DNA from: a virus
Direction: 5' to 3' (one strand)
IMG/VR virus record: IMGVR_UViG_3300048914_000221
Span: 1 to 33,434 of that record
Length of the DNA stretch: 33,434 nucleotides
Shown piece after piece: positions 3,101-33,434 of the stretch. The number at the start of each line of letters is the position of its first letter. The first letter of the stretch is position 1. The notes under the pieces are model-generated. The model was given only the letters and a program-made list of their open reading frames with translations, made no database searches and was not told the origin of the DNA. A program made the position numbers and the translations under genes.

Positions 3101-4521
3101 CCGGCTGGAACGCCTCGGCGGTCAACCGGACCGACAGCAACGCCCGAGCCGGCCACCCCAGCCAGGGCCTGGCGCAGACGATCCCCGGAACGTTCAACGC
3201 CTACGTTCCGGCGTCACTCAAGAGCCGCGGAATTCTGGACCCGGTGGCGAACGTTGCCGCGGCGATCCGTTACATCGTCGCCCGGTACGGCAACATCACC
3301 AGCGTTCAGCAGGCCAACGCTTCCAAGAGCCCGAAGGGCTACGCAGGCGGTGGCCGGCCGCGTGCGGGCGAGACATTCTGGGTCGGCGAGAACGGCCCCG
3401 AGCTCATGCGGCTCGGGCCGGGCGGGGCCACGGTGTGGGACTCAGCGACGTCGATGGCGATGGCGTCCGGACTCGGCGCAATGCGCGGTTTCGCGAAGGG
3501 CACCAGCAACGCGAAGACTCGTGCGGCGGCCCGCAAGCAGGTACCGGGTGACCTCAGCTCGGTGCACAAGGTTCTGACGGCGAGCGCGGCGGACATCAGG
3601 AAGGCGTTCGACGAGCTCACCAAGGACCTCAAGGCGGCGGGCGGTTCAGCCAAGGGGCTGGCGGACTCCAGCAAGAAGGCGTCCGCGAAGCTGCAGTCGT
3701 TGGCGAAGCAGCGGGACTCGGTGGACAGCAGGCTCGAGGCGGCCAAGACCGCGGCAGCCGATCAGAAGAAGTCGGCCGCGGACTTCCTGGGGCTGTCGAA
3801 TCTGCAGGACTCCGGATCGGTCGCTGACCTGATCATGGGCATGGAGCAGCGGCAGTCCACGCTGAAGGCCTTCCAGGGCACCATCTCCGGGCTGTCCAAG
3901 AAGGGCCTGAACCAGGACCTCATCAGCCAGTTGGTGGCGATGGGCCCGGAGAGCACGCTCGCCACCCTGGTCACGGGGGCGAACAAAGCCCAGCTCGCCC
4001 AGCTCAACAGCCTCGCCAAGTCGGGCGCCAAGTTGACCACCAGCTACGGAAACACCATGGCGGACGCCATGTTCGACGCCGGGGCGAACGCGTCGAAGGG
4101 CTTCCTCACCGGACTCAAGAGCCAGGAGAAGGAGCTCCAGGCGCAGATGAACAAGCTGGGCGACGGCCTGGTCGCGAGCATCAAGAAGAAGCTCAAGATC
4201 AAGTCGCCGTCCCGGGTCACCCAGTGGGTCGGCGAGATGACCGGCGCCGGTGTCGGCGTGGGCCTGGACAACATGGCTGCCAGCGTGGCGGCTTCGGCTG
4301 CGCGCGTCGCCGACGCCGCGGTGCCGGAGGTCCCCGCCGTGTCGCCCGCCTCGTACACCGCCGCAGGCGTCGCGGGTGGGGCTCTCGCCTCCGGTACCCG
4401 GCTGCGCCTGGTCCTCGAGGACGGCCGCGAGCTCGGCGCCTACGTCGAGGAGAAGGCAGACGCGCGTGTCGACGCCGGCCTCACGGCCGTGCGGCGCAAG
4501 GTCCGCTCCGGCACCAAGTAG
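157..4521 (+). CDS. Tape measure protein with embedded lytic transglycosylase domain
   Basis: A 1454-residue protein that sets tail length and lies inside the tail tube. A G-run just upstream supports ATG 157. Residues about 370-720 are very hydrophobic and hold 44-residue imperfect repeats (VGG-x-KAVGAGA at about 628 and 672). Two glycine-rich tape measure motifs follow, one near 785-810 (GGPVFGAGTETSDD) and one near 1065-1090 (GENGPELMRLGPGG). Between them is a lysozyme-like SLT domain with the probable catalytic Glu981 in TRESGWN and the downstream PSQGLAQTIPGTF motif; it would open peptidoglycan during DNA entry. The C-terminal third is helical and ends near a KIKSPSRV motif common in tape measures. 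At about 1.5 angstrom per residue the tail would be roughly 200 nm. Minor tail genes follow, as expected. Confidence 0.95.
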   Translation: MPNVGYATLQVIPSVRGISSELRSQLIGPAADAGNEAGEEAGGGLKDKLLVGAAAAGAAAGALLVAGISEAMDQANIASTLKGQLGATASDAARYGKIAGQLYAKGITEDVAAGAEAVRAVVSGGLAPPDATNKQLKSIAAQMSDVATTFGTDMSLQSQAISAQLKNGLAPNAEAALDVVTTGFQKLGPNAEDLLETFQEYPVQLKKLGLDSKTALGLFSQGLKGGARDTDIVADSLKEFSIRSIDMSQSSQDAYKLLGLSATDMSSQIAKGGKGATAGLQTVLDKLRGMKDPVKQQAAAVGLFGTQAEELGTSLFKLDPSKAVQSMGVVSGSAKQLGKDLHSGPAHEVTVFQRSLKQAFVNVLGGQVLPVLARAGGFANRVLLPPLKAIAATAASLLMPALMGLWSAGTSVVNWLRDMGTWLIPIGIAVVGFTAAILAQQIATAATTAVFSIYRGAILAWTAVQRGATIAQIAFNAVMNANPVILVITAILALGAALIVAYQRSETFRSIVQAAWAGIQTAAMFVWNSVLKPAFAGLMAGLSALGAAFTWLWASVIKPTFNFIVVAGKVLAVVLALTVFLPITLGVLALAYIFPWLWTHAIKPAFDWIAAGAVLLWSGLKVAFGYIVGGFKAVGAGAMWLYDAAIAPVVDLVLAGLRLLWAGAKLIFGFFVGGLKAVGAGAKSLWTAAVAPAMHGIQSVISTVYNSGIKPALNALKTAIGQVGKAFGTAKDAIKLAWDKVKAIAKAPVQFIIDTVYNKGIVGVWNKVAGAFGAPKLNKFKFATGGPVFGAGTETSDDVPAWLSKNEHVWTAREVKGAGGHGAVMALRNWAAAGGRGALPGFKDGGGLFGWIGSAGSTVAGWGSKAWDKVKEGASWLKDTLAASAKAGVNAVVRPLLRSIPGLGSGIGDMIAKIPNSMIDSLFGYAKEADDKGASDSFGGGKIPSGQHAAIIKRALSAAGVPPPGTLAQWLSGLNTLITRESGWNASAVNRTDSNARAGHPSQGLAQTIPGTFNAYVPASLKSRGILDPVANVAAAIRYIVARYGNITSVQQANASKSPKGYAGGGRPRAGETFWVGENGPELMRLGPGGATVWDSATSMAMASGLGAMRGFAKGTSNAKTRAAARKQVPGDLSSVHKVLTASAADIRKAFDELTKDLKAAGGSAKGLADSSKKASAKLQSLAKQRDSVDSRLEAAKTAAADQKKSAADFLGLSNLQDSGSVADLIMGMEQRQSTLKAFQGTISGLSKKGLNQDLISQLVAMGPESTLATLVTGANKAQLAQLNSLAKSGAKLTTSYGNTMADAMFDAGANASKGFLTGLKSQEKELQAQMNKLGDGLVASIKKKLKIKSPSRVTQWVGEMTGAGVGVGLDNMAASVAASAARVADAAVPEVPAVSPASYTAAGVAGGALASGTRLRLVLEDGRELGAYVEEKADARVDAGLTAVRRKVRSGTK

Positions 4522-8155: not shown

Positions 8156-10711
8156 ATGACGCTGTACACCTTCGGCGGGACTCCGGCTGACGTCCTCACC
8201 GACGACGCCGGCAACGTCGTCCCCGACTACCCGATCCTCGTCAAAGTGGCTGGCACCGGCGCCACGGTCACCGCCCTGTTCGAGGCGGACGGCACCACCC
8301 CCATCGCCACCCTTCGCACCAATGACGCCGACTCGAGCGCACCCGGCGCCGTGCGGACGTTCAAGGCAGCGGACGTCACCGAGATCGATTACGAGTACCT
8401 GGACGCGAGCAGCAGTCCGGTGCGCTGGTACCAGGCCGCGCGCGAGATCGCCTCGAGCGCGCTGCAGACCGCGCAGTCGGCCCTCGACGCCGTCGACGGG
8501 AAGCTCGACCTGGCCACGGGCGATGAGCAGGACGTGGCGGGCCCGGTCACCTTCCATGAACCGGTCACGTTCGAGGGGGACATCACGGCTCCGAACCTGC
8601 CCGACCTGCCCTCGGCCCGCTGGTTCATGGTCACCGGCGCGGTCGGCAACGGCAGTACCGACGACCGCGCCGTCATCCAGGCGCAACTCGACGCTGCACA
8701 CACGGCCGGCGGCGGAACGGTTTTCCTGCCCCCTGGGCGTACATACGGTGTCAGCACGTTCCTCGTGATCTACGACAACACCACGCTGTGGGCCTACGGC
8801 GCGACGTTGAAAGCGATCGGCACGAGCGCGGGCCTCCTGCGCAACTTCACGGGCAGCGAGACGTTCTCGGGCTACGCCGGCCACTCCCACATCCAGGTCC
8901 TCGGTGGCACCTGGGACGGCAACGCGGCCGACGCCGGCGTGGGCACGGTGACCAGCGAGACGGACATCATCAACTTCGTGCACTGCTCGGACATCACCGT
9001 GCGGGACGCCACGGTCCAGAACTGCAGCACGGCGCACGCGCTGGAGTTCAACAGCACCGACGGCGGCCGCGCCCTGAACTGCCGCTTCCTCGGCTTCAAG
9101 GACAACTCGGTCGGCTCCGTGCGCCAGTTCTCCGAGGCCGTCCAGATCGACATGGCCAAGAGCGGCAGCTCGTCCATCGGTTCCTTCGACAACACGGCCA
9201 GCAGGAACATCCTGGTGCAGGGCTGCTACTTCGGCCCGTCGAGCAGGCTCGGCGCCTACGGCCGCGCGGTCGGCTCCCACACCCTGGCCGCCGGAGTCAC
9301 CTACGACAACATCCGCGTCCTCGACAACAGGATCGACTCCACCCTGCAGGAGGGCATCCAGGCCTACGGCTGGAAGCGCGCGGTCATCTCCCGCAACGTG
9401 ATCACGGGCACCGGCTACTCGGGGATCCTGGCCACCCTCACGGACCCGGCGACCACGTCGGTGGCGCCTTACCAGTTGGACATCTCCGACAACATCATCG
9501 ACGGGTGCGGCACGGACTCCGCGATCCGCGTCATCGCCTACGCCGCGTACAAGTACCCGGGCGTGAACATCGCCGACAACACGGTCCGCTCCATCACCGG
9601 CAACGGCATTCACTGCGAGCACTGCCAGGCCCCGAACATCACCGGCAACAAGGTCGACAGCACCACGTCCACGGGCATCTACGCCCACTACAGCGACAGC
9701 GCGACCTTGTCCGGCAACACGCTCCGCTCGATCGGCTCCAACGCGCTCAACGTATCCGGGTCCGTCGGAGCGAACGTCACCGGGAACACCGTGGACACGA
9801 CCAGCAGCAACTTCGGGGCGTTCATCGGCCAGGGCGCGGACGGCACGACGAACTCCACGGACGCAGTCGTCACCGGCAACCAGATCGTGTCACCGGCATC
9901 GTCGGGAATCCGCCTATCGACCAACGCCACCGGCTGCCTGGTCACCGGGAACAAGGTCCGCAAGGGCGGCGGCGCGGCCACCAGCGCCCTGTCCATGGCC
10001 GCCTCGGCGACCGGCTGCACGGTTCTCGGCAACGACTTCTCCGGCAACAGCTGGTCGGCGTCCACCGCCATGAGCGTGTCCACCTCCGTCCCGGTCACCG
10101 GCCCGGGCGGCATGCAGGCCCTGCCCGGCTCCAACACCGTCGACACCGACCTCTCGCCGCTGCCCTCTCTCGAGGCGGCGATGCGGCCCTCCGGCCGGTA
10201 CGAGACGACCAGCCGCCTGCGGCTCGGAACGTCCTCCACGCCGACCAGCGGCACTCTGTACTTGGTCCCCATCTGGCTCCCCAAGGGCCTGGTCATCAGC
10301 AACATCAGCTTCGCGTCCGGCAGCACCGCCGCAACCACGCCGACCAACTGGTGGTTCACCCTGCACAACAGCTCGAAGGTGGCCCTGGCCCGCACCGCTG
10401 ACCAGACCACGACGGCGTGGGCGGCGAACACCGTGATGACCAAGGCCATCGCCCAGACGACCGCGGGCTCCGCGTCGAGCTACACCACCACCTACGCGGG
10501 CCTGCACTACCTCGGCGTCATGATCAAAGCGACGACGAACCCGACCCTGATCAGCGAGGGTTCCATGCCCGACGTCGTCGCCAGCCCGAGCCCGGGCCTC
10601 GGCGGCACCGACGCGGGCCTGTCCACCCCGCCCACCGTCACCGCCGGTGCGTTCACCGCCGGCGCCTTCGGTACGGGCTCCGGGATCCTCGCCTACGGCT
10701 ACGTCACCTGA
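8156..10711 (+). CDS. Tailspike with pectate-lyase-like beta-helix domain
   Basis: An 851-residue protein starting at ATG 8156 after a GAAGGGAG site. Residues 1-140 form a likely attachment module (beta strands, then an Ala-rich helix). From about residue 155 there is a Pectate_lyase_3-type entry motif (GAVGNGSTDDRAVIQAQLDAA and GGGTVFLPPG are its parts), followed by a long right-handed beta-helix with many NxI/NTV-type turns (for example NRIDSTLQEGIQAYG, NVITGTGYSGI). The C-terminal 170 residues (from about YETTSRLRLGT) form a separate beta module seen on other actinophage spikes. Such proteins bind and often cleave surface polysaccharide. Depolymerase activity is inferred; catalytic acids cannot be named safely by eye. 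Confidence 0.88.
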   Translation: MTLYTFGGTPADVLTDDAGNVVPDYPILVKVAGTGATVTALFEADGTTPIATLRTNDADSSAPGAVRTFKAADVTEIDYEYLDASSSPVRWYQAAREIASSALQTAQSALDAVDGKLDLATGDEQDVAGPVTFHEPVTFEGDITAPNLPDLPSARWFMVTGAVGNGSTDDRAVIQAQLDAAHTAGGGTVFLPPGRTYGVSTFLVIYDNTTLWAYGATLKAIGTSAGLLRNFTGSETFSGYAGHSHIQVLGGTWDGNAADAGVGTVTSETDIINFVHCSDITVRDATVQNCSTAHALEFNSTDGGRALNCRFLGFKDNSVGSVRQFSEAVQIDMAKSGSSSIGSFDNTASRNILVQGCYFGPSSRLGAYGRAVGSHTLAAGVTYDNIRVLDNRIDSTLQEGIQAYGWKRAVISRNVITGTGYSGILATLTDPATTSVAPYQLDISDNIIDGCGTDSAIRVIAYAAYKYPGVNIADNTVRSITGNGIHCEHCQAPNITGNKVDSTTSTGIYAHYSDSATLSGNTLRSIGSNALNVSGSVGANVTGNTVDTTSSNFGAFIGQGADGTTNSTDAVVTGNQIVSPASSGIRLSTNATGCLVTGNKVRKGGGAATSALSMAASATGCTVLGNDFSGNSWSASTAMSVSTSVPVTGPGGMQALPGSNTVDTDLSPLPSLEAAMRPSGRYETTSRLRLGTSSTPTSGTLYLVPIWLPKGLVISNISFASGSTAATTPTNWWFTLHNSSKVALARTADQTTTAWAANTVMTKAIAQTTAGSASSYTTTYAGLHYLGVMIKATTNPTLISEGSMPDVVASPSPGLGGTDAGLSTPPTVTAGAFTAGAFGTGSGILAYGYVT

Positions 10712-22516: not shown

Positions 22517-23323
22517 TTGTCCACATCGTCGCACGAGGTCGTGAAACTCGATCTCACCACCGGCTCCATCCACACCGTGCTGGTCGACGGCCAGCCGCAG
22601 ATCGTCCTGAAGCCCGTCATCGAAGAGCTGGGCTTGGACTACTCGACCCAGCTGACCAAGCTGCGGCAGCGTTCTTGGGCAACCGTGGGGCAGAGCCCCA
22701 TGGTTGCGGAGGACGGCAAGACGCGCTTGATGGCTGTCGTCCCGGTCCGCACCTTCCTGATGCTCCTGGCCACGGTCAACGAGAACCGCGTCGCCGAGGC
22801 TCACCGCCCGACGCTGGTCGCTTTCCAGAACGAGACCGCGGACGCGATCGAGGCGTACTGGACGCAGGGCGGCGCGATCAACCCGCGGGCCACCGACGAC
22901 CAGTTGGACTCGCTGATCGCGAGGGCGAAGCAGCAGGCCGAGGTCCTGTCGATCCTGGCGCCGATCGTCTCGCCCGAGTGGCTGGAGACGAAGGGGCGCC
23001 TCGTCGCAGCCCGCGCCCTCGGCGAGGAGCCGGAGATCGACCCGCTCGACATCCCGCTGTATGTCCCGGACTTCCTCAAGGACAAGGGCCTGAAGCGGAA
23101 GCAGATCGAGTCGGTGCAGTCCTGGTTCGGCCGCCGCGCGGCCGGCATCTACATGGCGCAGTCCGGTGAGGAGATCGGCACCAGGCAGTCGGATCTGCCG
23201 AACGGTTCGGTGCGCGAGACCAAGGCGTGGACCGAGCGGCATCGGCCGGTGTTCGAGGAGACGTGGGACCGCTACTACGCGGACCAGTACCCCACCCAGC
23301 TGGGTCTCGGGGAGGCGTCATGA
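22517..23323 (+). CDS. Antirepressor (P22 AR N-terminal domain type)
   Basis: A 268-residue protein. TTG 22517 is the likely start: CAGGAG at 22505-22510 is spaced six bases before it and it gives a normal family N-terminus. Residues about 10-130 match the phage antirepressor N-domain (VLVDGQPQIVLKPVIEELGL, later LMAVVPVRTFLMLLATVNEN and RVAEAHRPTLVAFQNETADA). The C-terminal half is helical and basic (DFLKDKGLKRKQIESVQSWF), probably a DNA- or repressor-binding part. It would oppose the repressor or sense host state during the switch to lytic growth. It is followed by an ATGA overlap. Confidence 0.88.
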   Translation: MSTSSHEVVKLDLTTGSIHTVLVDGQPQIVLKPVIEELGLDYSTQLTKLRQRSWATVGQSPMVAEDGKTRLMAVVPVRTFLMLLATVNENRVAEAHRPTLVAFQNETADAIEAYWTQGGAINPRATDDQLDSLIARAKQQAEVLSILAPIVSPEWLETKGRLVAARALGEEPEIDPLDIPLYVPDFLKDKGLKRKQIESVQSWFGRRAAGIYMAQSGEEIGTRQSDLPNGSVRETKAWTERHRPVFEETWDRYYADQYPTQLGLGEAS

Positions 23324-27467: not shown

Positions 27468-27586
27468 TGACCAGCAACCAGCCACTGCGCTGCACCCGCT
27501 GCGGTGACGAGGACGGACCGTTCATCCCCGAAGCCGGCCTGTGCGAGGACTGCGAGCGCCTCGTCCCCGGGGACGGTGCCGCATGA
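27467..27586 (+). CDS. Zinc-ribbon miniprotein (39 residues)
   Basis: ATG 27467 overlaps the preceding stop and its own stop overlaps the next ATG. The product has CTRCGDEDG (Cys9, Cys12) and CEDC (Cys26, Cys29), a complete four-Cys zinc ribbon in 39 residues. Tight coupling on both sides argues that it is real. It sits directly before the RecE-like gene, so it might act with DNA processing, but that is only inference. Confidence 0.7.
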   Translation: MTSNQPLRCTRCGDEDGPFIPEAGLCEDCERLVPGDGAA

Positions 27587-28476
27587 CCGCCGCGGTGGAG
27601 GTCGAGGCGCCGGCAGCGGTGGCCGTCACGGAGCCCGGCATCTACCCGGACATGCCGATCGACGTCTACCACGGCGACCCGGTACCTGGCGGAAGCCTCT
27701 CCTCGTCCGGCGCCCGCAAGCTCCTCGACCCGAGCTGCCCCGCGATCTACAAGTGGGAGCGCGACAACCCGCAGCCCCACAAGCGGGAGTTCGACATCGG
27801 CCACGCCGCCCACCTCCTCGTCCTGGGAGAGGGCCCGGAACTGGAGGTCATCGACTTCCCTGACTGGAAGAAGGTCGCCGCCCGGGAGCTCCGAGACCTG
27901 GCCTACGACGAAGGCAAGGTTCCGCTCCTGACCAAGGAGCACGAGCAGGTACAGGCGATGGCCGAGGCCATCCGCCAACACCCAACGGCGGGCCGCCTGT
28001 TCGACCCCGAAGCCGGGACCGCCGAGCAGTCCCTGTTCTGGCACGACCCCCAGTTCAAGGTGTGGCGCCGGGCCCGCCCGGACTGGATGCCGCACCGCGG
28101 CGACGGCCGGCTCGTCGTCGTCGACTACAAAACGTGCCGGGCCGCCGACCCGGGCGCCCTCCAGCGAGCCGTGTACGAGCACGGCTACCACGCGCAGGCC
28201 GCCTGGTACCTCGACGCCGTCAAGGCCTTCGCTCTCCACAGCGACCAGGAACCCGCGTTCGTCTTCGTCTTCCAGACCAAGACCGCCCCGTACCTGGTGC
28301 ACCTGGTCGAGCTCGACTTCCCGGCCCTCACCCTCGGCGCGGCCCGCAACGAGCGAGCCCTTCGCACCTACGCCGAGTGCCAGCGCACCGGCGTCTGGCC
28401 CGGCTTCAACGACCGCATCACCTACCTGCCGCTCCCGCCCTGGGCGGAGAAGCGCGACCAAGAGGAGTACCTGTGA
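27583..28476 (+). CDS. RecE-like exonuclease (PD-(D/E)XK, DUF3799 type)
   Basis: A 297-residue nuclease starting at ATG 27583 (ATGA overlap). Motifs in order: GHAAH at 73-77, AEQSLFW with Glu148, RPDW with Asp167, VVVDYKT with Asp181 and Lys183, and HAQAAWYLDA. These are the signature of RecE/phage exonucleases with the PD-(D/E)XK core, which resect 5' ends of double-stranded DNA. The single-strand-annealing partner is encoded next with a four-base overlap. Together they would give a two-gene recombination system used in replication and repair. The length is close to that of other actinophage RecE-like proteins. Confidence 0.9.
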   Translation: MTAAVEVEAPAAVAVTEPGIYPDMPIDVYHGDPVPGGSLSSSGARKLLDPSCPAIYKWERDNPQPHKREFDIGHAAHLLVLGEGPELEVIDFPDWKKVAARELRDLAYDEGKVPLLTKEHEQVQAMAEAIRQHPTAGRLFDPEAGTAEQSLFWHDPQFKVWRRARPDWMPHRGDGRLVVVDYKTCRAADPGALQRAVYEHGYHAQAAWYLDAVKAFALHSDQEPAFVFVFQTKTAPYLVHLVELDFPALTLGAARNERALRTYAECQRTGVWPGFNDRITYLPLPPWAEKRDQEEYL

Positions 28477-29303
28477 ACCAGCCCGTCCACCTCCCGTCCA
28501 ACAACGCCCCGGCCCGGGTCGGGCAGGGCACCGCGGTCGAGCAGTCCCGCGCCGCCGCCGAGGTGCAGGCTGCGGTCGTCGTCGCCCAGCAGTGCCCCCG
28601 CAACATCCAGCAGGCCGTCGCCCAGATGCGCGAGTCCTGCAACCAGATGTTCCTCGCCGAGCGCGCCTTCTACCGGTACCCGAAGGGCGGCCAGACCATC
28701 ACCGGCGCGTCCGTCCACCTCGCCCGGGAACTGGCCCGCTGCTGGGGCAACGTCCAGTACGGCCTCGTCGAGATGCGCCGCGACGACGACTACGGCCAGT
28801 CCGAGATGCAGGCCTTCGCCTGGGACGTGCAGACCAACTCCCGCAACAGCTCGACGTTCATCGTCCCTCACCGCCGCGACACGAAGAACGGCCCCCAGGC
28901 CGTCACCGACATGCGCGACATCTACGAGCTGAACACGAACAACGGCGCCCGCCGCGTCCGTGAGGCGATCTTCGCGATCCTGCCGCCCTGGTTCGTCGAG
29001 GAAGCCAAGGAGCTGTGCAACCGGACCCTGCGCGACGGCGGCGGCAAGCCGCTGGCTCAGCGGGTCGCCGACGCCATTAAGGCCTTCGAGGGCATCGGCA
29101 TCACTGCGGACCGGATCGAGGCCCGCTTCGAGCGCGGCTCGGAGAAGTGGACCGAGCACGACGTCGCCCAACTGCTGGTGATCTTCAAGTCGATTCAGCG
29201 CGGCGAGGTCACCGCCGAGGACGAGTTCCCCGCACCCCGCGTCAGCGCCGACGAGCTGATCGGCGGTGCCAGCAAGAAGCCGGCCACCGAGGCCACCGCC
29301 TAA
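28473..29303 (+). CDS. RecT-like single-strand annealing protein
   Basis: A 276-residue protein; GTG 28473 follows AGAGGAG and overlaps the RecE-like stop. It contains QQCPRNIQQAVAQMRESCNQ, FYRYPKGGQTITGASVHLAR, then WGNVQYGLVEM and VPHRRDTKNG-type segments, and a helical C-terminal half. I know this pattern as the usual partner of RecE-like nucleases in actinophages. It would coat single-stranded DNA and anneal it. Assignment to RecT rather than another annealing family is from gene pairing and memory of motifs, so the exact family is uncertain. Confidence 0.72.
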   Translation: MNQPVHLPSNNAPARVGQGTAVEQSRAAAEVQAAVVVAQQCPRNIQQAVAQMRESCNQMFLAERAFYRYPKGGQTITGASVHLARELARCWGNVQYGLVEMRRDDDYGQSEMQAFAWDVQTNSRNSSTFIVPHRRDTKNGPQAVTDMRDIYELNTNNGARRVREAIFAILPPWFVEEAKELCNRTLRDGGGKPLAQRVADAIKAFEGIGITADRIEARFERGSEKWTEHDVAQLLVIFKSIQRGEVTAEDEFPAPRVSADELIGGASKKPATEATA

Positions 29304-30049: not shown

Positions 30050-30885
30050 CCGCCGACTCACAGCCGCACGGAGAGCGCCGCTGCTACCTCCGCGGGTGCC
30101 GGCGCCCCGAATGCGTCGAAGCGAACCGCAGGTACTGCAAGCAGTACCGCGTCGCCACCATCCGCCAGCCCATCCGCGTCGACGCCACACCCGTCAAACA
30201 GCGCATCGAGGAATGGTCCGGCCAGGGCTACAGCCACGTACAGATCGCGCAAGCCGTCGGAGGCAACAGCGGCGACATCACCAAACTCCTCAGCGGGCAA
30301 CCCACCGTCGCCCCCAAGGTCGCCGTCCGATACCTCAACTCGCGCGGACCCCGCGGTATCCCCTTCCACGCCACCACCGACAGCACCGGAACCGTCCGCC
30401 GCGGCCGGGCACTCCACGCCATCGGATACCCGCTCTACGAGATCGCCGACGGCCTTCCCGTGAACACCGCGTACCTCGGCCGCATCCTCGACGGCCGGTA
30501 CCCCACCATTCGCGTCGCCATCGCTGAAGCCATGACCGCCCGGTACCGGCAGCTGCGATGGAAGCCCGGCACATCCCACTTCGCAGTCCACAGCGCCGCC
30601 CGCCGCGGCTGGCACGGACCGTTCGCCTGGGACGGCAACATCGACGACCCGGACGCCCAGCCCGAGACGCTGCCCACCTACGCGCCACTCGCCGCCAACG
30701 GCCGCGACTCGATGCGCAAAGCCGAGATCGAACACCTCTACCTGCTCGGCGAATCCATCCCCTCGATCGCCAAGCAGCTCGGCGCCAACGAGAAGTACAC
30801 CAGCGACCAACTCGCCGCCGTCCTCCGCGAACGCGCCGCGAAGACGCTCGCCAGCCGCTCCGACTCCGAAAGGGCAGCAGCCTGA
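30046..30885 (+). CDS. Actinophage HTH/zinc-motif DNA-binding-like protein
   Basis: A 279-residue protein. GTG 30046 follows GGAAGGAG. The N-terminus has HGERRCYLRGCRRPECVEAN, then RRYCKQY, a Cys-rich module frequent in actinophage and Streptomyces proteins. Three segments resemble helix-turn-helix repeats: YSHVQIAQAVGGNSGDITKL (about 62-81), YPLYEIADGLPVNTAYLGRI (about 128-148) and ESIPSIAKQLGANEKYTSDQ (about 240-260). So it may bind DNA through several similar modules. It overlaps the methyltransferase start by one base, which may link it to modification or early control. Confidence 0.7.
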   Translation: MTADSQPHGERRCYLRGCRRPECVEANRRYCKQYRVATIRQPIRVDATPVKQRIEEWSGQGYSHVQIAQAVGGNSGDITKLLSGQPTVAPKVAVRYLNSRGPRGIPFHATTDSTGTVRRGRALHAIGYPLYEIADGLPVNTAYLGRILDGRYPTIRVAIAEAMTARYRQLRWKPGTSHFAVHSAARRGWHGPFAWDGNIDDPDAQPETLPTYAPLAANGRDSMRKAEIEHLYLLGESIPSIAKQLGANEKYTSDQLAAVLRERAAKTLASRSDSERAAA

Positions 30886-32600
30886 TGTCCATCGCGTCCA
30901 AAAAGAAGGCCCGGACCGCCACGCACCGACCGGCTGTCAAGCGCCGCCGTTTCCGCCACGACGAGTACACCGCGGTCGACCTGTTCTCCGGCTTCGGCGG
31001 ACTCACCGAGGGGATCAGGCGCGCCGGGTTCACGACGATCATGGCGGCGAACCACAACGAGTACAAGGTCCAGGTCCACGAGGCGAATCATTCTTACGCC
31101 GAGCACTGGATCGCCGACCTGGTCGACCCTGAGGCGGCCGACTACCACTCCGCCCGTGACCTCCCCGCCGCCGACATCCTGGTTGCCGGCGTGAGCTGCG
31201 TGAACCACTCGCCCGCGAACACGCTCAAGGCCTACGCGCAGGGTCTGACCCTGTTCGGGATGGACGACCCCGACTACGAGGCGCGGGTCACCCGGTCCGA
31301 GCGGGACCGTGCCACCGCGAACTGCGTCCTGCACTACGCGCAGACCCACCGACCGCGGATGATCCTCGTCGAATGCACGACTGAGCTGCAGTCGTGGGGG
31401 CCACTCCGCCCCGGCAGCAAGAAGATCGGCGACGGCAGTACCTACCGGTGGTGGCTCAAGCAGTTCGACCTGCTCGACTACAACCACAAGGTTCTTTTCC
31501 TCAACAGCCAGTTCTTCGGCGTCCCGCAGTCCCGCAACCGCGGCTACTGGGTGTTCGTCCACAAGTCGCTGCCAATGCCGGACCTCGAGCACCGCCCCGC
31601 GTCCAGGTGCCACCACTGCGACAAGGACATCGAAGCGGTCTGGACGTGGCGCACCGGCATCCCGCCCACCGGGAAGGTCGCCTACGGCGAGCAGTACGAG
31701 TACCGCTGCCCGTCGTGCCGTACCCGCGTCGAGCCTCCGGCCACCCCGTCCATCGCCGCGCTCGACCTCACGGATCTCGGCACCCGCATCGGCGACCGGC
31801 CCGTCAAGACGTTCAAGGACGGCCACCGCGGCCCATTCGCCGCATCCACGACCGCCCGTATCGACCGGTGCCGCAAAAAGTTCGCCGACTTCCCCGCGAT
31901 TCTCATGCCGGCCAAGGGCGTGCACGGATCCGAACGGCTGCTGCTGCAGCCACTGGCGACGCAGACCAGCCAGCAGGAGGCAGCTCTCCTGTCGACCGGG
32001 CACGGCCTGTGGGACGAGTCGGCGCTCGCACTCGCCGTCGACAACTATCAAGGCGCGCCCCGCGGACTAGGCGAGCCGCTGCCCACCCAGCTCGCCTCCG
32101 AGACCCTCGCTGTCGTTTCATCCGGCGTCATCCCGTACCGCAAGAACACCGTGCCCGCCGTGTACAGCGAGCCGATGTCCACGTTCACCGCCGAACAGAT
32201 CCCCGGACTGCTCACCGCAGCCGGCTGGTTCAAGCAGAACGGAACCAGCCCCGGACACGGGACGGCACCGCACCCGGTCACCGACCCGCTGGGCACCCTC
32301 ACTGCCCACGACACGACGGCGCTCCTCACCGCGAACTGGGGTCCCGCACTGTCACAGGTGCCGTTCGACGAGTGCTTCTACCGAATGATGGCCGCCCACG
32401 AGATCGGCCGCGGCTGCGGCTTCGACGTGGACTTCCGCGACTACTCCGGAACCTTCCGCGTGTGGGGCACCGCGCGCGACCAGGTCGACGGCTTTGGGAA
32501 CGCCGTCAGCCCGCAGGTTGGCACCTGGATCGGCGAACGACTCCGCGCCGTCCTCCACAGCTACCAAGACCGCGGCCCCGAGCTCGCCGCAGCCGCCTAG
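30885..32600 (+). CDS. Cytosine-C5 DNA methyltransferase-like protein with zinc-ribbon insertion
   Basis: A 571-residue protein starting at ATG 30885, overlapping the upstream stop by one base. Motif I is DLFSGFGG (32-39). The motif IV position reads AGVSCVNHSP, with Cys105 kept but the usual Pro-Cys-Gln replaced by Ser-Cys-Val. Motif VI is VECTTEL (Glu163), motif VIII is QSRNRG (215-220) and motif X is GNAVSPQVG (538-546). A four-Cys zinc ribbon (242, 245, 275, 278) is inserted after motif VIII in the recognition region. It likely modifies cytosine, perhaps to block host restriction. The altered motif IV could mean an unusual reaction or base. It ends at a terminator. Confidence 0.85.
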   Translation: MSIASKKKARTATHRPAVKRRRFRHDEYTAVDLFSGFGGLTEGIRRAGFTTIMAANHNEYKVQVHEANHSYAEHWIADLVDPEAADYHSARDLPAADILVAGVSCVNHSPANTLKAYAQGLTLFGMDDPDYEARVTRSERDRATANCVLHYAQTHRPRMILVECTTELQSWGPLRPGSKKIGDGSTYRWWLKQFDLLDYNHKVLFLNSQFFGVPQSRNRGYWVFVHKSLPMPDLEHRPASRCHHCDKDIEAVWTWRTGIPPTGKVAYGEQYEYRCPSCRTRVEPPATPSIAALDLTDLGTRIGDRPVKTFKDGHRGPFAASTTARIDRCRKKFADFPAILMPAKGVHGSERLLLQPLATQTSQQEAALLSTGHGLWDESALALAVDNYQGAPRGLGEPLPTQLASETLAVVSSGVIPYRKNTVPAVYSEPMSTFTAEQIPGLLTAAGWFKQNGTSPGHGTAPHPVTDPLGTLTAHDTTALLTANWGPALSQVPFDECFYRMMAAHEIGRGCGFDVDFRDYSGTFRVWGTARDQVDGFGNAVSPQVGTWIGERLRAVLHSYQDRGPELAAAA

Positions 32601-32664: not shown

Positions 32665-32865
32665 CTAGGACTTGACGGCGGGCGCGATCTTCGCGACCCA
32701 CTCGCGGGTGAAGCCGGTCAGCTTCGCCATGTGGGAAGGGCCTTTGCCGCCGGCTCGGCCTTCGACCAGCAGTGCACGCAGCTCTGCGTCGGCGTCGTTG
32801 AAGGCCTTCTCGGCGCGGGTCCGCTTTCTCGCGGCGGCCTGAATCCTCTCGTCCAGCTCGTCCAT
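32665..32865 (-). CDS. Small HTH-like hypothetical protein
   Basis: A 66-residue protein with ATG at 32865. An N-terminal charged helix (DELDERIQAAARKRTRAEKA, then FNDADAELRALL) looks like a coiled coil. The C-terminal HMAKLTGFTREWVAKIAPAV resembles the recognition part of a small helix-turn-helix. It could bind DNA as a dimer. It is divergent from the initiator-like gene at 33047, with repeats between them, so it may control replication genes. Two further in-frame ATG codons lie upstream, but without better signals. Confidence 0.65.
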   Translation of the reverse strand: MDELDERIQAAARKRTRAEKAFNDADAELRALLVEGRAGGKGPSHMAKLTGFTREWVAKIAPAVKS

Positions 32866-32908
32866 GTTGCACATAGTGCCATGGCGATGCGCGGTCACGC
32901 TACGCGAC

Positions 32909-32944
32909 CGCGAGTATCGCTCGCGAACGGTGGCCGCGAACGGT
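32909..32944. promoter_or_regulatory. Inverted and direct repeats in the replication control region
   Basis: CGCGAG (32909-32914) and CTCGCG (32920-32925) form an inverted repeat. CGCGAACGGT occurs at 32922-32931 and again at 32935-32944. The second copy runs into TATTCT (32944-32949), a good -10 for rightward transcription. The set looks like an operator cluster for the 32865 protein or another regulator. Confidence 0.5.
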
Positions 32945-32950
32945 ATTCTC

Positions 32951-32995
32951 ATCTCTGGAGTCGAGAGATCGCTGAACGCGGGCCTCCCTGAGGCC
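32951..32995 (+). promoter_or_regulatory. Two small hairpins in the leader of the initiator-like gene
   Basis: ATCTCT/AGAGAT (32951-32969) and GGCCTC/GAGGCC (32981-32995) could form in the 5' leader if transcription starts near 32956. They may be part of a control element, but the stems are short. Confidence 0.35.
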
Positions 32996-33046
32996 TGGTT
33001 CCGAGCGCCCAAAACACCTCAGCATCTCCGCCGAAAGAGAGTCCTC

Positions 33047-33434
33047 ATGCCCAGCAGGTTCGAGTTCGAGCGAGCAGTGAAGGCGAGCAGCCTGCCGCCG
33101 CTGTCGCGCTTGCTGGCGCTGACGATCGCGACGTTCGCCAACTCAGACACGGGCGTCATCCCGGCGCGGTATCAGCCGTCCCTGTCGACGCTCCTGGCGG
33201 CGACAGGGATGTCGAAGGGGTCACTCCTCGCCCACCGCAAAACGCTGGACGAGGGGAAGTGGGTCACCTTCACGTCTCCGAGCCAGGAAGACCAGGTCCG
33301 CAAGAAGGCCCGCAATGTCTACAAATTGCACGTTCCGGCTGGGTCAGCTCCTGACCTAGCTACTGGGTCACCTGATGACCCAGACGAAACGGACACTGGG
33401 TCAGTGGCTGACCTAGAGCTAGGTCAGGAGATGA
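33047..33434 (+). CDS. Replication initiator-like protein (partial, 3' end beyond window)
   Basis: 129 residues are visible before the window ends. ATG 33047 has a GAGAG stretch upstream. The N-terminal 100 residues form a winged-helix-like DNA-binding domain (LPPLSRLLALTIATFANSDT, then QPSLSTLLAATGMSKGSLLA and a KKARNVYKLHVP wing end), like the N-domains of phage O/RepA-type initiators. It is followed by an acidic, low-complexity linker (PDDPDETDTGSV) whose DNA is made of palindromic repeats. This is the same layout as lambda O, in which the origin lies in the gene's middle. No helicase motif is visible yet; that part would lie beyond the edge. Confidence 0.72.
   Translation, partial: MPSRFEFERAVKASSLPPLSRLLALTIATFANSDTGVIPARYQPSLSTLLAATGMSKGSLLAHRKTLDEGKWVTFTSPSQEDQVRKKARNVYKLHVPAGSAPDLATGSPDDPDETDTGSVADLELGQEM
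33340..33434 (+). repeat. Palindromic iterons, candidate replication origin
   Basis: Four 19-bp units of the form TGGGTCA-N5-TGACCYA start at 33340, 33364, 33397 and 33420. The second is a perfect inverted repeat. The fourth starts TAGGTCA and is cut by the window edge. Starts are 24, 33 and 23 bases apart. They lie inside the initiator-like gene, in the part coding for a weakly constrained linker, so they are best read as binding sites of the initiator itself. Confidence 0.75.

Follow-up and report, generated by a model that had tools for sequence, protein, structure and literature searches.

Iterons inside the initiator gene of an actinobacterial phage: a probable replication origin whose half-sites co-vary with one residue of the recognition helix

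The DNA analysed here, called the window below, was a complete IMG/VR virus record, 33,434 bases long. An anti-repressor Ant-like gene was present at positions 22517–23323 (+ strand; PHROG 524, E 3e-27), which fits a temperate phage. An exonuclease VIII-like gene (27541–28476, +; PHROG 412, E 6e-98) was followed by a PHROG 3657 gene of unknown function (28458–29303, +), and the two look like a phage recombination pair. A DNA methyltransferase gene (30810–32600, +; PHROG 116, E 2e-43) lay a short way upstream of the putative initiator gene; in Streptomyces phage Raleigh, an annotated DNA methylase is also found just upstream of the counterpart gene. A small HTH protein (32665–33012, −; PHROG 686) was encoded immediately before the initiator gene, on the opposite strand, a place occupied in the relative L008 by a Phd/YefM-type antitoxin gene (9556–9855, −). 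The window ended within the initiator gene, where the following features were located:

33047–33434, + strand: 5′ part of the initiator gene, 129 codons, cut by the window edge (relatives L004–L007, 91–92% identical; PHROG 270/391, replication initiation)
33047–33337, + strand: winged-helix DNA-binding domain, codons 1–97 (AlphaFold2 model, pLDDT mostly >90; PDB winged-helix matches)
33215–33253, + strand: recognition helix, codons 57–69 (helix H57–69 in the AlphaFold2 model; HTH position)
33218–33220, + strand: codon 58 (Gly), the sole N-terminal position separating putative origins of GGTCA type from those of GGTCG type (protein alignment, tree)
33339–33359, no strand: iteron 1, CTGGGTCAGCTCCTGACCTAG (pattern match in the window)
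33363–33383, no strand: iteron 2, CTGGGTCACCTGATGACCCAG, with perfect arms (pattern match in the window)
33396–33416, no strand: iteron 3, CTGGGTCAGTGGCTGACCTAG (pattern match in the window)
33419–33434, no strand: first 16 bases of iteron 4, CTAGGTCAGGAGATGA, the rest cut off by the window edge (complete counterpart at L006 10373)

The preliminary description had reported four palindromic 19-mers in about 95 bases. Three exact matches to TGGGTCA-N5-TGACCYA were indeed found (33340–33358, 33364–33382 and 33397–33415), with none elsewhere in the window, but the fourth unit was cut by the edge, and in relatives the right arm of the corresponding unit is imperfect. The units are palindromic as described; their conserved length is, however, 21 bp, with the consensus CTRGGTCA-N5-TGACCYAG. 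The three complete units of the window, in the last 95 bases of the cut gene, were of the form CTGGGTCA-N5-TGACCYAG, and the spacings between iterons were irregular. The left part of iteron 4 read CTAGGTCA-GGAGA-TGA from position 33419 and was in another codon frame (ELGQEM) than iterons 1–3. When up to three mismatches were allowed, the count in the window was unremarkable by itself (6 found versus 3.8 expected), so that the evidence for an array lies in the exactness of the units, their clustering and the relatives. With palindromes defined by 8-bp arms, a 5-bp spacer and at most one mismatch, the window gene held four, compared to 0.48 ± 0.64 in 1000 synonymous-codon shuffles, none of which reached four.

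The complete protein, 261 amino acids long, was read in L004, L006 and L007, which are 91–92% identical to the window over the shared part. Five units were present in close relatives, at gene positions 293, 317, 350, 373 and 395, in agreement with the earlier expectation that the array runs on beyond the window edge. The window contig past position 33434 should carry iteron 5, TGACCACAAGAGT and the helicase gene described below. The AlphaFold2 model of L006, made from an alignment of 24 sequences, consisted of a confident winged helix (residues 1–100), a disordered linker (103–156) and a small helical C-terminal domain (161–227). The L006 iterons occupied codons 98–139, most of which were covered by the linker. 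The protein matched PHROG 391 (“replication initiation O-like”, E 2e-5 to 2e-8) and PHROG 270 (“replication initiation”, E 5e-8 to 1e-5), with low scores of 20–35 bits. The domains and these matches bear out the view that the complete protein is initiator-like. A match to Pfam HTH_36 was below the cut-off. No close relative of the window protein was found among 50,697 annotated phages, and its relatives gave partial, module-wise matches there. The PDB sequence search returned chance-like matches, mostly to artificial alpha-rep proteins, and Foldseek against the PDB gave no match at E ≤0.001, the top ones being general winged-helix regulators. No Rfam match was found in the gene region of L006.

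In the relatives, the next gene started directly after the initiator gene. It encoded a DnaB-like helicase in the clade of the window and in the GGTCG clades, whereas members with GGGCA iterons could have there a gene for a DnaC-like helicase loader (E 2.5e-35 in L029) or one of an unnamed family. The helicase and the loader were each seen singly, the former adjoining the initiator in some members and the latter in others; the helicase loader anticipated to the right was thus found in some relatives, and a helicase in others.

The palindromes were conserved as DNA. In 28 genes, 113 palindromes were observed compared to 23.0 ± 4.7 in synonymous-codon shuffles, an approximately fivefold excess (maximum of 1000 shuffles, 41). 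The shuffling was done within each gene, preserving both the peptide and the codon usage. Single genes held units in more than one codon frame, the same DNA being read as GSAPDL, LGQEM, LGRE or ARAGDAL. The palindromes persisted in relatives at 40–55% identity, in different reading frames and with symmetric changes of the half-sites; loss of the palindromes with retention of the peptide, raised at the outset as a ground for rejection, was not what was found. From these comparisons, it is the DNA of the array rather than the peptide on which selection acts.

The array was also confined to the gene. Ten viral records and two entire Streptomyces genomes (8.3 and 9.3 Mb) had the motif CTRGGTCR-N5-YGACCYAG at the initiator gene and at no other place; an eleventh record (L011), belonging to the GGGCA class, had no match, as expected. 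When 2.9 million viral contigs were scanned blind for the last iteron and the junction that follows it, 19 matches were obtained, 16 of which were in the initiator gene, the other three being chance matches in unrelated genes, without full arms. L014 had the same N-terminal domain, yet an array was found neither in nor near its gene.

At 40–60% identity, the two arms changed symmetrically, which defined three classes of half-sites: CTRGGTCA|TGACCYAG (GGTCA class), CTRGGTCG|CGACCYAG (GGTCG class) and CTAGGGCA|TGCCCTAG (GGGCA class). The arms in L034 were GTAGGGCA. At the corresponding place, more distant relatives carried GGGGCA (L094), GGGCTCA (L096), GGGGTCA (L040), AGGCGCA (L052) and GTACTCCG (L095). 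In the last of these, eight AGTACTC-type palindromes were seen on both strands at gene positions 366–447, within the linker, representing another iteron class.

Among 100 N-terminal positions, position 58 was the only one that separated the GGTCA from the GGTCG proteins, with Gly in 9 of 9 and Ser in 11 of 11, respectively. In the L006 model, the recognition helix begins one residue before it. On a tree of the GGTCR clade built without column 58, at least three switches were counted, at which residue 58 and the half-site class changed together. In the sister pair L023/L028, the iterons were at the same five positions and every half-site was switched. In the sister pair L049/L050, prophages of one small bacterial genus with N-terminal domains 85% identical, the iterons were again at the same positions, all twelve half-sites were switched (CTAGGTCA- and CTAGGTCG-type 21-mers) and the DNA between iterons was nearly identical. 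Since a sign test on independent pairs had only two or three pairs to draw on and significance was out of reach, the rule rests on the exclusivity of the residue and on the sister pairs; further genomes, added by order and by genus, brought no new switches. These observations support the initiator's own N-terminal domain as the likely reader of the iterons. We consider it reasonably probable that the base at the inner end of every half-site, A or G, is set in these actinobacterial phage initiators by whether residue 58 is Gly or Ser, and that the protein and all 10–12 half-sites, encoded in the same few hundred bases, were switched together several times. The switch of the half-sites may have occurred by recombination.

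The DNA to the right of the array was read in relatives. The junction GACCACAAGAGT was fixed after the last unit in 16 of 17 GGTCR-type genes, with GACCACAAGAAT in L051. It was translated as DHKS in L004, L006, L022 and L048, as TTRV in the other GGTCR-class genes and as TTRI in L051. The AT content of the 60 nucleotides past the array was 0.41, compared to 0.29 expected from the same peptides and the codon usage of the neighbouring genes, and the serine codon AGT was used 41 times out of 114 in this segment versus 9 out of 388. The 50-bp segment at the junction stood at a median of the 0.3rd percentile of duplex stability within its locus. The AT-rich stretch predicted to the right of the iterons thus exists in relatives as AT-shifted, unusually unstable DNA, although the bias is mild (41% AT). 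In several members, a second AT-shifted stretch immediately preceded the first iteron. Runs of AGTAGTTCC, which encode poly-serine through a codon seldom used in these genomes, followed the last iteron in L026 (4468–4500), and also in L034 and L037. They resemble the trinucleotide elements of some bacterial origins and are perhaps part of an unwinding element, but a DnaA-trio-like reading of the AGTAGT runs is speculation. The change of GC skew suggested for this point was seen neither in the window nor in four larger records, where no turn occurred at the array; the skew says little for a mostly integrated phage with one-way genes.

The C-terminal modules and the downstream genes varied independently of the iteron class, whereas the N-terminal domain and the iterons never separated among array-bearing members. 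This is as expected if the N-terminal domain and the iterons make up one unit and the C-terminal domain with the helicase or loader another, as we infer. The isolated Streptomyces phages Ignacio, AxeJC and Raleigh carried a related C-terminal module joined to a different N-terminal domain, with different palindromes in the linker; their gene is annotated as a hypothetical protein or “mucin-2”, and no origin is annotated. In Streptomyces phage Chymera (L043, about 3850–4010), the gene after a short HTH gene contained an array of repeated GGGGGACAGTGCCCC palindromes, which may be an origin of this kind whose HTH domain is encoded by a gene of its own.

The array, its position in the linker, the relatives and the gene order agree with the initial proposal of replication origin iterons embedded in the initiator gene, which can be upheld as an inference. 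Very probably, the right-hand edge of the window falls within the replication origin of a temperate, Streptomyces-type phage of actinobacteria, and this origin lies in the gene of its own initiator, in the stretch coding for the flexible linker between the winged helix and the helical C-terminus. A linker peptide that happens to be repetitive (GSxxDL) might also give rise to such repeats by chance, the DNA itself having no role, and the units of one frame do encode similar peptides across relatives (GSAPDLA, GSADDLA). The palindromes vanish, however, when the codons of the same peptide are shuffled, other frames give different peptides from the same DNA, the junction is kept as DNA though its frame differs, and the arms change symmetrically; the peptide reading is refuted by these results and has practically no chance of being right.

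Two explanations that grant the DNA a function were weighed against an origin. The palindromes could be operators through which the initiator or another regulator controls transcription of the replication operon, with the origin elsewhere. Winged-helix proteins of similar fold are mostly transcription regulators, and palindromic sites suit a dimeric regulator. An operator is nevertheless very unlikely. The array begins approximately 290 bp inside the coding sequence and has as many as six units; at its end are a conserved junction and a weak duplex, the rest of the genome is free of it, and genes for a helicase or a loader come next. The half-site, moreover, tracks the recognition helix of the initiator itself. 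Repeated palindromes are also found at partition (centromere-like), packaging and incompatibility sites. That the array is such a site rather than an origin is extremely improbable: the adjoining gene encodes a DnaB-like helicase or a DnaC-like loader instead of a partition or packaging function, and the class of the sites follows the recognition helix of the initiator.

An initiator of the lambda O/SPP1 gp38 kind that carries its own origin is the best reading of the system. In lambda, the origin lies in the middle of the O gene and comprises inverted-repeat iterons, each bound by O as a dimer, and an AT-rich stretch (PMC7466680, PMC6022878, PMC3349717). The lambda O and Stx-phage origins have at least four iterons, and the protein binds DNA with its N-terminal part and its partner with the C-terminal part, a flexible linker joining the two (PMC7466680, PMC3349717, PMC6022878). 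As in lambda, the iterons described here are inverted repeats located inside the initiator gene between the parts coding for the DNA-binding and C-terminal domains, and an AT-shifted stretch, milder than that of lambda and read in relatives, lies beside the array, the weak duplex being in the same place as the lambda AT-rich tract (PMC3349717, PMC7466680). The proteins are related in sequence through PHROG 391/270, weakly in bits. The iterons differ from those of lambda in length (21 bp with a 5-bp spacer versus 18 bp) and in sequence, the next gene encodes a DnaB-like helicase or a DnaC-like loader and not P, and at least three half-site classes exist within one protein family. The early comparison with lambda O, same place and different iteron sequence, holds on both counts. 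Functionally, the system would resemble lambda O, yet its iteron sequence and next gene set it apart from lambda-type replicons.

In SPP1, the origin oriL, with direct repeats and an AT-rich element, is within gene 38, and the phage encodes the loader gp39 and the DnaB-type helicase gp40 (PMC6316719). What the two have in common is repeats inside the initiator gene; the array described here is palindromic, and SPP1 has a second distant origin, oriR, whereas no second array was found in the records and genomes scanned. The Streptomyces theta plasmid pWTY27 also has an actinobacterial initiator, RepA, with repeats and inverted repeats, but its iterons are noncoding and next to repAB (PMC3583192), while those of the phage family are inside the gene and of another sequence. 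Fold matches were obtained to 4pt7 (“initiator”), 4pql and 5kbj (“Rep-DNA complex”), which we take to be RepA_N-type winged-helix RepA structures, with Z of 7.5–8.1, values that are likewise seen among unrelated winged helices; in sequence, the initiator matched none of these chains, and a Pfam search gave no hit to RepA_N. RepA_N plasmids, too, carry their iterons inside rep, in the part that separates the N-terminal from the C-terminal domain.

We propose the following sequence of events. A dimer of the initiator's N-terminal domain would bind each 21-bp palindrome, with one winged helix per CTRGGTCA half-site, and four to six bound palindromes would form a nucleoprotein complex. This complex would open the weaker, AT-shifted duplex to the right of the last iteron, that is the junction GACCACAAGAGT and approximately 60 bp beyond. 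Recruitment of the replicative helicase by the C-terminal domain would follow. In the close relatives of the window, this would be the DnaB-like phage protein encoded by the very next gene; in other relatives, a DnaC-like loader would be brought in instead.

The principle of an origin inside its initiator gene is already known, and type-specific pairs of O protein and origin are known among lambdoid phages. In the literature covered, mostly outside subscription journals, no description was found of the initiator family, of its iterons or of the apparent specificity residue; the residue-58 rule is the part that may be new. Putative origins are thereby assigned to a group of prophages of actinobacteria that have no described origin in the literature covered, and a DNA signature, the last iteron followed by ACAAGAGT, allows such putative origins to be located without a protein search. 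It is an old question how the specificity of an initiator can shift in step with that of an origin made of many sites, as every site must change at once. The L049/L050 pair, with one and the same base exchanged in all twelve half-sites and a single recognition-helix residue exchanged alongside, is a ready natural experiment: as the sites and one residue change together, the matching of the initiator protein to the sites of its putative origin is directly testable.
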